Of a stretch of DNA of 64,000 bases, positions 3,703 through 5,837 are shown one piece after another. Source of the stretch: Thauera aromatica K172 (GTDB lineage: Bacteria > Pseudomonadota > Gammaproteobacteria > Burkholderiales > Rhodocyclaceae); contig NZ_CP028339.1 in assembly GCF_003030465.1 (NCBI RefSeq), positions 2,480,001 to 2,544,000 on the forward strand. Reading direction: 5' to 3'. A model generated the notes under the pieces. It saw only the letters and a list, made by a program, of their open reading frames with translations. It was not told the DNA's origin and made no database searches. Positions within the stretch are counted from its first letter, which is position 1, and every line of letters begins with the position of its first letter. Made by a program: the position numbers and the translations under genes.

Positions 3703-4131
3703 TCAGATCTCGAGAACTTGCGGCTGCTGGGCGCTGTGCGGATGGGACGGCCCCGCATAGCACTTCAGCTTCTTCAGCATGGCGTAGCCCAGCGGGCCCT
3801 TCGGCAGCATGCCCTTCACCGCCTTCTCGAGCACGCGCTCGGGGAAGCGCTGCTGGAGCTTGGTGAAGTTGGTTTCGTAGATGCCGCCCGGGTAGCCGGA
3901 GTGGCGGTAGTATTTCTTGTCCTGGGCCTTGTTGCCGGTCACGCGCAGCTTATCGACATTGACCACGACGATGAAATCGCCGGTATCGACGTGAGGGGTG
4001 TAAATGGCCTTGTGCTTGCCGCGCAGACGGCGAGCCACTTCGGCGGCAAGACGGCCAAGCACCTTGTCCGTGCCGTCGACAACGAACCAGTCGCGCTTGA
4101 CCTCGTGCGGCTTGGCAGAAAACGTCTTCAT
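3703..4131 (-). CDS. rplM: 50S ribosomal protein L13
   Basis: A 142-residue primary binding protein of 23S rRNA. The N-terminus [19 protein letters not shown] and the internal [28 protein letters not shown] segments are typical. A near-consensus promoter lies 56-85 nt upstream, with an inverted repeat centred on its -10 box. It is the first gene of rplM-rpsI. Confidence 0.98.
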
Positions 4132-4186: not shown

Positions 4187-4216
4187 ATTCTAATGCGAGC
4201 ACCGGCTCGATGTCAA
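4187..4216 (-). promoter_or_regulatory. Sigma-70 promoter of rplM-rpsI with dyad over the -10 box
   Basis: On the minus strand TTGACA (4216-4211) and TAGAAT (4192-4187) are separated by 18 nt, close to consensus. An inverted repeat CTCGCA (4181-4186) / TGCGAG (4194-4199) is centred exactly on the -10 element. The predicted leader to the rplM ATG is about 50 nt. Confidence 0.7.
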
Positions 4217-4246
4217 TTATTCCGTGCGTCGGCGCCATGTCAGGCG

Positions 4247-4276
4247 AAAAAAAACGCAGTCCGCGAGGACTGCGTT
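4247..4276 (-). terminator. Intrinsic terminator of the candidate small RNA
   Basis: Ten-base perfect arms AACGCAGTCC (4253-4262) and GGACTGCGTT (4267-4276) with a GCGA loop. On the minus strand the stem runs into eight consecutive T (4254-4247). No protein gene on this strand ends here, which is why a non-coding transcript is proposed. Confidence 0.85.
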
Positions 4277-4356
4277 AAATCCACACCAAAGGAGGAGGGT
4301 GGAGGAGACACCGCTTGGATCGGCGCGTCTTTGTTCCCGCGTCAGCGATCCGACTG
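4247..4356 (-). ncRNA. Candidate small RNA with CU-rich anti-Shine-Dalgarno loops
   Basis: A transcript of about 110 nt is predicted from a good promoter (4363-4391) and a strong intrinsic terminator (4247-4276), with no open frame of note. On the minus strand it would fold as a 5' stem GGATCG/CGATCC (4351-4346 with 4322-4317), then a hairpin with CCACC-type arms (4302-4281) whose loop is UCCUCCUUU. An alternative overlapping hairpin GGUG/CACC (4312-4298) has loop UCUCCUC. Both loops are complementary to ribosome-binding sites (GGAGGA). This recalls the CCUCC-loop small RNAs of alphaproteobacteria (cuckoo RNAs), but homology is not claimed. The function is unknown; a role in translation control or in binding a regulator protein is inference. 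Confidence 0.55.
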
Positions 4357-4741
4357 AGACGAATTATGCGCAAGCCGCAAAATATTGGCAAGATTTTTTT
4401 GTGCAATGCACGATAAATGTTTTGATTTTTTCATAAGCAGGATTTATTCAGGCTCAACTGCTTGTTTTATCTCGATTTGCGCTCTTATCCGGGACCCATG
4501 GACCTTCCCCGGCCCCACTACCAGAAAGCGATTTAACGCTGGTTTTGTGCGCTGCATGAATACGCTCCCGTATTGTATCTGCAGCCCCCCTCCCAAACCT
4601 GCGCTCCCCTCATTGACGACGCGACTTGCGGCCCGCCCGACAGGCACGAGCGCAAGCTTGCGGCACTGCGGTAACATGCGGCCCGGCACCCCGCCGGCAA
4701 CCGCAGACAAGGGCCGTTTCGCCCTGCAGGAGTTCACGACA
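4357..4741. other. Non-coding gap: small-RNA promoter and leader of the OsmC gene
   Basis: No supported gene here. The left part is AT-rich, unlike the rest of the window, and holds the minus-strand promoter described above. The right part is the untranslated region of the OsmC-family gene. An in-frame extension of that gene upstream of 4742 is open but has no family similarity and unlike composition. Confidence 0.6.
4363..4391 (-). promoter_or_regulatory. Promoter of the candidate small RNA
   Basis: On the minus strand TTGCCA (4391-4386) and CATAAT (4368-4363) are 17 nt apart. A second overlapping pair, TTGCAC (4406-4401) and TATTTT (4384-4379) at 16 nt, lies just upstream. The first would start transcription near 4356. 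Confidence 0.5.
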
Positions 4742-5161
4742 ATGGAATGCACCATCAAATGGCTCGACGGCATGAGCTTCATCGCCGAAACCGGGACCGG
4801 TCACCTCGTTGCCATGGATGGCGCGCCCGAAGCAGGAGGGCGCAACCTGGCACCGCGGCCGATGGAATTGATGCTTGCCGGGGCGGGCGGCTGCACAGCC
4901 TTCGACGTCGTTCTGATCCTCAAGCGCGGCCGCCACGACGTGCGCGGCTGCAGCGTACGCCTGGAGGCCGAACGCGCGGAAAGCGACCCCAAAGTGTTCA
5001 CCCGGATCTGCTTCATCTACACGATCACCGGCCGCAAGCTCAAACCCGAAGCGGTCGAGCGCGCCATCCATCTCTCGGCCGAAAAATACTGCTCGGCTTC
5101 AATCATGCTGGCCAAGACTGCGGAAATCACCCACGACTTCGAGATCGTCGAGGCCGATTGA
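4742..5161 (+). CDS. OsmC/Ohr-family protein (YhfA-like)
   Basis: A 139-residue protein of the OsmC superfamily, whose members are thiol peroxidases or proteins of unknown role. The family's central helix with its cysteine is visible in MLAGAGGCTAFDVVLIL near residue 53, and the second cysteine in SAEKYCSASIMLAKT near residue 118. Start ATG at 4742 (MECTIKWLDGMSF) fits family length. Short YhfA-type members are a distinct branch from Ohr, so peroxide reduction is possible but not proven. coq7 converges on it from the right, a pairing often seen in betaproteobacteria. Confidence 0.85.
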   Translation: MECTIKWLDGMSFIAETGTGHLVAMDGAPEAGGRNLAPRPMELMLAGAGGCTAFDVVLILKRGRHDVRGCSVRLEAERAESDPKVFTRICFIYTITGRKLKPEAVERAIHLSAEKYCSASIMLAKTAEITHDFEIVEAD

Positions 5162-5216: not shown

Positions 5217-5837
5217 TCAGATACGGTAGGCCAGCGTCGTCATCAGCTTCGCCCCCAGCCTCATCGCCGCCTTCACAGGGGCAGGAAGCTCGTGCGCCCC
5301 AAGCCCGACTGCCGTATCGGCATGCCCGGCCTCGTCCTCCTTCATCTGCTCGACGATCGCGCGCGAGCGCAGATCGGCGGCAGGCAACGCCTCCAGATGG
5401 CCCTTCAGGTGCTGCTCGACCTGACGCTCGGTTTCGGCCAGAAAACCCAGATTCTGACGTTCGCCGAAGCGCCCGGCCAGCATTCCCAGGCACAGCGAAC
5501 CGCCGTACCACAAGGGATTGAGCAGGCTCTTGCGCCCTCCCAGATCCGCAATCCGGCGCTCGGTCCACGCCAGGTGCTCGGTTTCTTCCTGTGAAGCGTG
5601 GCGCAACGCGTCGCGGATGGTGGGGTCGCGCGACATCATCGCCTGCCCTTGGTAGAGGGCCTGGGCACAGATCTCGCCGGCATGATCGACCCGCATCAGC
5701 GCTGCGGCATGGCGACGCTCGGCATCGCTGAGTACGGTCTCGTCGATGCCCTCTCCCGGTACCGGGCGCACACTGGAGGCCGGCGCGAAGACGGTACGCA
5801 GCGCCCGGTCGAATTCGATGATGGCACGATCGATCAT
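5217..5837 (-). CDS. coq7: Demethoxyubiquinone hydroxylase Coq7
   Basis: A 206-residue di-iron monooxygenase that adds the last ring hydroxyl in ubiquinone synthesis, acting at the membrane surface. Di-iron ligands are visible in MRVDHAGEICAQALYQGQ, in EETEHLAWTERR and in the C-terminal EQMKEDEAGHADTA. Its length agrees with the bacterial family. Its ATG overlaps the stop of the CNP1-like gene by one base (TGATG), so the two are translationally coupled at the end of a leftward operon. Confidence 0.95.
   Translation of the reverse strand: MIDRAIIEFDRALRTVFAPASSVRPVPGEGIDETVLSDAERRHAAALMRVDHAGEICAQALYQGQAMMSRDPTIRDALRHASQEETEHLAWTERRIADLGGRKSLLNPLWYGGSLCLGMLAGRFGERQNLGFLAETERQVEQHLKGHLEALPAADLRSRAIVEQMKEDEAGHADTAVGLGAHELPAPVKAAMRLGAKLMTTLAYRI

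Follow-up and report, generated by a model that had tools for sequence, protein, structure and literature searches.

The window, a stretch of 64,000 nucleotides of Thauera aromatica K172 DNA, encodes a small RNA (sRNA) of the S17/ncS27 type, and we consider with fair confidence that the best explanation of the locus is an sRNA that is repressed by PhaR, responds to PHB through titration of that repressor, and brakes uptake and aromatic catabolism. Sequence comparison gives family membership, covariation, an operator-like motif with a phaR association, and a target signature. The features referred to below are as follows (window coordinates).

3703–4131, minus strand: rplM (L13), downstream neighbour; own promoter TTGACA-18-TAGAAT at 4216–4187
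4245–4276, minus strand: intrinsic terminator, 10-bp stem (4276–4253) followed by T8; from the sequence
4246–4310, minus strand: RF02278 sRNA core and expected short form (67 bits); 5' end placed near 4310 by analogy with S17S
4280–4303, minus strand: first hairpin, UCCACCC-UCCUCCUUU-GGUGUGGA, with Site 2 as its loop; predicted fold and consensus structure
4299–4310, minus strand: Site 1, 5' single-stranded anti-Shine-Dalgarno segment UGUCUCCUCCAC; nearly invariant among 48 aligned relatives
4311–4356, minus strand: leader with stem GGATCG/CGATCC, presumed cut off in the processed form as from S17L to S17S
4363–4368, minus strand: −10 element CATAAT; from the sequence
4386–4391, minus strand: −35 element TTGCCA; from the sequence
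4399–4413: PhaR-like operator 1, TTGTGCAATGCACGA, core TGCAATGCA at 4402–4410; directly upstream of the −35 element
4544–4560: PhaR-like operator 2, TTTGTGCGCTGCATGAA, core TGCGCTGCA; 146 bp from operator 1
4742–5161, plus strand: OsmC-like gene, divergent neighbour
5217–5837, minus strand: coq7, synteny marker in common with Bordetella S17

The window RNA belongs to RF02278

An Rfam scan matched the RF02278 model (Betaproteobacteria_toxic_sRNA) over its full length (model 1–64 of 64) to positions 4246–4310 of the minus strand, scoring 67 bits (cut-off 50, E 2.6e-11). This was the sole Rfam family matched in the 64-kb window, and the copy is the single one in the 3.7-Mb genome. RF02278 was present in 142 of the 151 same-family genomes and in 128 of the 200 same-order genomes, frequently as several copies per genome; none was found when the RNA was sought on plasmids. 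These comparisons make the window RNA an ordinary member of an already known family and the Rhodocyclaceae orthologue of the S17/ncS27-type sRNAs. Its sequence, together with its position on the coq7 side, identifies the window locus as the S17 locus. The order rplM-sRNA-osmC-coq7 was kept in 75 of the 114 Rhodocyclaceae copies examined and also in 16 other PhaR+ copies.

The RF02278 match and the retention of the RNA across Rhodocyclaceae thus bear out the original prediction of a separate small RNA whose anti-Shine-Dalgarno segments are exposed. Its statement that no counterpart had been described at this locus in Rhodocyclales was wrong, since the family is known and Sim et al. (2024) had already named Aromatoleum aromaticum, which belongs to the Rhodocyclaceae, as having a homologue (PMC11722255). 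The likeness that it saw to the CCUCC-loop RNAs of alphaproteobacteria did not hold either, as alpha-r14 (RF02344) scored 17.8 bits against a curated cut-off of 58.8. Membership of NmsR (RF02877) was likewise rejected (29.1 bits, curated cut-off 52). The sub-threshold match to the Neisseria NmsRb RNA lies at 4248–4348 (minus strand), overlapping the RF02278 span, and may mean that these two sRNA families share a distant ancestor. NmsRA/NmsRB (RcoF, NgncR_162/163) resemble the Thauera RNA in being CU-rich and in pairing with the ribosome-binding sites of metabolic genes, and the model match along this stretch is weak; unlike it, they are arranged in tandem.

RF02278 RNAs occur in hundreds of species and have been called 'toxic' or 'growth-attenuating'. 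The reference given for the family is Kimelman 2012. Growth inhibition on expression, in E. coli or in the native host, has been published for other members (PMC5688073), and S17S was without toxicity in exponential phase (PMC11722255). The family includes the double-hairpin RNAs ncS03, ncS05, ncS27 and ncS62 of Burkholderia cenocepacia, among which ncS27 was studied by experiment (PMC5688073), and the Herbaspirillum tsRNAs Hsnc059, Hsnc063, Hsnc086 and Hsnc107 (PMC7011215). The Thauera RNA shares with RF02278 members its sequence, two hairpins and CU-rich single-stranded sites, and differs from others in being a single copy adjoining rplM/osmC/coq7. S17 of Bordetella pertussis, an experimentally studied RF02278-type sRNA that adjoins coq7 (PMC11722255), is like it in the coq7-side locus, the core, the combination of a leader with a short core, and the transporter and catabolic targets, which are predicted in Thauera. 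The leader is about 46 nt in the Thauera RNA as against 123 nt in S17, and the Bvg dependence of S17 is inapplicable to Thauera. The long form of S17 is processed by RNase E to a form of ~67 nt, with Hfq dependence; for Thauera, the long leader suggests similar processing.

Fold and covariation

The 65-nt core folded with −25.6 kcal/mol (z −5.9), and 0 of 200 shuffles were as good; the fold of the whole 111-nt RNA was moderately better than that of shuffles (z −2.2). A stem formed by the 5' end itself had been proposed, and of this the arms GGATCG/CGATCC stood, being kept at 12 loci of close relatives, whereas the folding energy did not support it: the leader stem by itself was no better than shuffles (z −0.5).

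Covariation was evaluated in an alignment of 48 relatives with 500 shuffles as the null. In the consensus structure, 96% of the cells were paired, both-sided changes numbered 112 cells against 36 in shuffles, and the covariation score was 0.443 against 0.163, a value reached by none of the 500 shuffles. Both sides had changed in two of the five consensus pairs of the first hairpin, where 100% of the cells were paired, and in six of the eight pairs of the terminator stem. The CU-rich core was nearly invariant while the terminator stem varied pairwise. The RNA thus has the two hairpins and the unpaired CU-rich segments of RF02278, backed by covariation, and the paired stem changes and constant loops that the original prediction had called for in relatives were both found.

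The predicted loop UCCUCCUUU is present and is conserved in relatives. The proposal that it alternates with a second, mutually exclusive hairpin fared worse: the alternative (loop UCUCCUC, arms GGUG/CACC) can form in the window sequence and in just 41 of 195 relatives, so there is no conserved switch. In processed or short forms known from relatives, this segment is the single-stranded 5' end.

Promoter and terminator

The 10-bp terminator stem with its eight T and the sigma-70-like promoter were both located on the minus strand as described beforehand, the latter as TTGCCA-17-CATAAT at 4391–4363. Three promoter-like sites were found in a 3-kb stretch, with 0.6 expected. The predicted transcription start lies ~7 nt past the −10 element. 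The promoter-like site of rplM (4187–4216, minus strand) is strong and lies between the sRNA terminator and rplM; a small terminator-like hairpin at 4200–4180 overlaps it.

A PhaR-like operator accompanies most sRNA copies where phaR is present

PhaR is a sensor of PHB granules that quits DNA to bind them. The window genome encodes phaR (PF07879, E 3.4e-31), and a perfect palindrome, TTGTGCATTGCACAA, lies ~120 nt ahead of its main phasin gene. The published PhaR consensus is YTKNTGCRNYGCANMAR in R. eutropha (PMC12849132) and TGCRNYGCASMA in B. diazoefficiens (PMC6201568). Compared with this consensus, which comes from other species, the window operator was exact in the core and had two mismatches by eye in the full 17-mer; the published operator search in R. 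eutropha tolerated three mismatches (PMC12849132). A further near-perfect PhaR-like palindrome was seen at L060 (G000:C1:2651638), with a UvrD-like helicase gene on one side and a small gene of unknown function on the other, and is possibly another PhaR target.

The core pattern TGCRNYGCA was sought within 160 nt upstream of 204 sRNA copies (175 PhaR+, 29 PhaR−). It was found in 135/175 copies of PhaR+ genomes and in 2/29 copies of PhaR− genomes, and both exceptions were in incomplete genomes (90% and 85% complete) with PhaR+ congeners. Reversed or permuted motifs occurred upstream of 0–3 of the 175 PhaR+ copies, and the region downstream of the sRNA core had the motif in 13/175. The association held between families (19/22 against 2/12, p 1e-4). 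The motif was also present at 62 of 79 loci in a set of named genomes that overlaps the 204 copies and includes Cupriavidus, Herbaspirillum, Pandoraea, Achromobacter and Bordetella. Families f21, f22 and f26 are PhaR+ without the exact core motif. As a positive control, the phasin genes of relatives carried the motif upstream in 27 of 30 cases, mainly as pairs 56–59 bp apart. In two genomes, the sRNA lies ~1 kb from phaR (L187 in G217 and L188 in G260).

PhaR− promoters have another dyad, TATTAGA-NAAT-NCTAATA, in 21/29 copies compared with 1/175 PhaR+ copies; G236 is PhaR+ and yet carries it. At L046, L057 and L163–L186, all in PhaR− genomes, this dyad stands ~45–59 nt upstream of the sRNA core. 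It looks like the operator of another regulator, and the exchange suggests that the RNA was retained while its regulator was replaced. Since PhaR− lineages may form few clades and mostly share this dyad, the correlation with PhaR may reflect few events.

These data bear on the possibility that the RNA is a plain RF02278 sRNA repressing metabolic mRNAs, with its TGCA dyad bound by a regulator other than PhaR. S17 responds to Bvg, and the different dyad of PhaR− lineages means that the regulator of RF02278 does vary. Nevertheless, we regard this alternative as unlikely, because the motif fits the published PhaR consensus even in flanks that had not been part of the search (agreement with YTKNTGCRNYGCANMAR: T at −3 in 84%, A/C at +10 in 93%, A at +11 in 97%), because it also marks the phasin genes of that clade, and because genomes lacking phaR hardly ever have it.

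Operator spacing and promoter classes

Two promoter classes were distinguished among RF02278 copies. Among the short sibling copies, it is at exactly −33/−34 that the operator begins, covering the −35 element, and the transcript is expected to start with the sRNA core itself. In long-leader copies, the window copy among them, the operator lies over or directly upstream of −35, as it does at R. eutropha phaP1 (PMC12849132). The Thauera RNA accordingly differs from the short copies in its longer leader and in an operator that is just upstream of −35, not over it. Sibling clusters (four copies within 3.3 kb, or pairs) were seen at L111 (G044:C1:3303000–3311500), L330 and L301, each copy having a PhaR-like operator over −35. 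S17-related genomes combine promoter elements of the PS17 type with a PhaR-like operator over −35. In the Achromobacter RTa promoter, TTGCAT-17-TACTAT, the −35 element is inside TTGCATCGCACAA; these are the elements mapped for B. pertussis PS17 (PMC11722255).

Where operators are paired, the spacings cluster at approximately 123, 134, 146, 156, 167 and 177 bp, i.e. in steps of ~10.5–11 bp. For 27 distinct spacings, the Rayleigh test gave p ~1e-4 at periods of 10.75–11 bp, eight periods having been tried. Such helical phasing suggests binding on the same face and possibly looping.

Operator 2 lies ~180 nt before the start codon of the osmC-like gene, and the PhaR-like sites could in principle serve that divergent gene and be close to the sRNA by chance. 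We find this very improbable, since sibling copies at unrelated loci have the operator at the fixed −33/−34 position and since copies away from rplM/osmC/coq7 show the motif in 20/32 PhaR+ as against 1/21 PhaR− cases. A reading of the RNA as a 5' leader or attenuator belonging to the rplM-rpsI operon, and not as a separate sRNA, is scarcely credible and was rejected: in most Rhodocyclaceae rplM does come next in the same orientation, but a strong intrinsic terminator ends the sRNA, rplM has its own promoter past that terminator, many RF02278 copies are away from rplM, and the relatives are trans-acting sRNAs (PMC11722255, PMC5688073).

Target signature

Targets were sought in 1.2 Mb of the genome plus the window, comprising 976 crudely called genes. 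Complements of 8 nt to Site 1 were found at the ribosome-binding sites of 19 genes, compared with 1–5 for control sets. Among the matches are solute-binding and DctQ proteins of TRAP transporters. Judged by sequence, an AMP-binding enzyme in the set resembles a benzoate-CoA ligase, and an enoyl-CoA-hydratase-like protein resembles BoxC.

With 7-nt complements, Site 1 matched 15 of 22 TRAP/ABC solute-binding-protein genes, compared with 34 of 920 genes in the background, which was taken with a crude ORF caller from one third of one genome. By family, the whole-genome counts were 9/12 for DctP and 6/10 for Peripla_BP_6. Control Shine-Dalgarno-like 7-mers matched 0–3 of the 22 genes, and when only strong-SD genes were considered the ratio was 15/21 to 34/303 (p 2e-9), which rules out Shine-Dalgarno strength as the source of the signal. 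Site 2 was rejected as the main target determinant in the window genome (5/22 against 32/920, weaker than Site 1), as was phasin mRNA as the main target in the manner of MmgR, the phasin ribosome-binding sites being only partly complementary by eye. The signature agrees with the S17 deletion data (transporters, paa genes) and with the effects of ncS27 on carbon use (amino-acid and carbohydrate uptake).

Discussion

In the mechanism that we propose, the sigma-70 promoter would give a transcript of ~110 nt ending at the intrinsic terminator, which is probably processed to a stable form of ~65 nt. Translation would be blocked by Site 1 at the 5' end and Site 2 in the hairpin loop, which would base-pair with ribosome-binding sites. 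PhaR most likely represses the sRNA promoter through the operator adjoining −35, with operator 2, predicted to lie on the same helix face, assisting. As PHB stores fill, PhaR would be titrated and the sRNA would rise, lowering the amounts of TRAP/ABC solute-binding proteins and of some aromatic-catabolism enzymes, so that carbon uptake would be braked when storage is full.

MmgR (alpha-r8) belongs to an RNA family different from RF02278. In the published description of this Sinorhizobium meliloti sRNA, PhaR (AniA) represses it, its promoter contains a PhaR site, and it is connected with PHB (PMC12542648). Control of an sRNA by PhaR thus has a precedent, from another bacterial class than Thauera (alphaproteobacterial). 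MmgR is thought to tune phasins, whereas the Thauera signature is in solute-binding-protein genes. As counterpoints to this mechanism, PhaR can also activate, as with phaP3 in R. eutropha (PMC12849132), and S17 is raised in the Bvg+ mode and is not known to depend on PHB.

Two elements appear to be new here: the PhaR operator-like site at an RF02278 promoter, and the match of Site 1 to solute-binding-protein ribosome-binding sites in the Thauera genome. A literature search, with subscription journals mostly outside its reach, found no PhaR link to RF02278 RNAs. Sass et al. (2017) noted an upstream motif shared by the Burkholderia RNAs and named no regulator, and Sim et al. (2024) found PS17 active in vitro without BvgA and postulated an unnamed repressor (PMC11722255), for which PhaR is a candidate. 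We think it probable, if somewhat less so than for the Thauera locus, that RF02278 sRNAs across Betaproteobacteria are a conserved PhaR output braking high-affinity carbon uptake and aromatic catabolism, and that the missing S17 repressor and the regulator of the Burkholderia double-hairpin RNAs are both PhaR, or a regulator that has taken its place where lineages have no PHB.

If the PhaR link is true, it bears on both the Sass 2017 motif and the repressor of Sim 2024, and it also matters to bioplastic production, in which PhaR and uptake are targets for engineering. It would also tie RF02278 RNAs to carbon storage, and their 'toxicity' would gain a physiological meaning as a brake on uptake.
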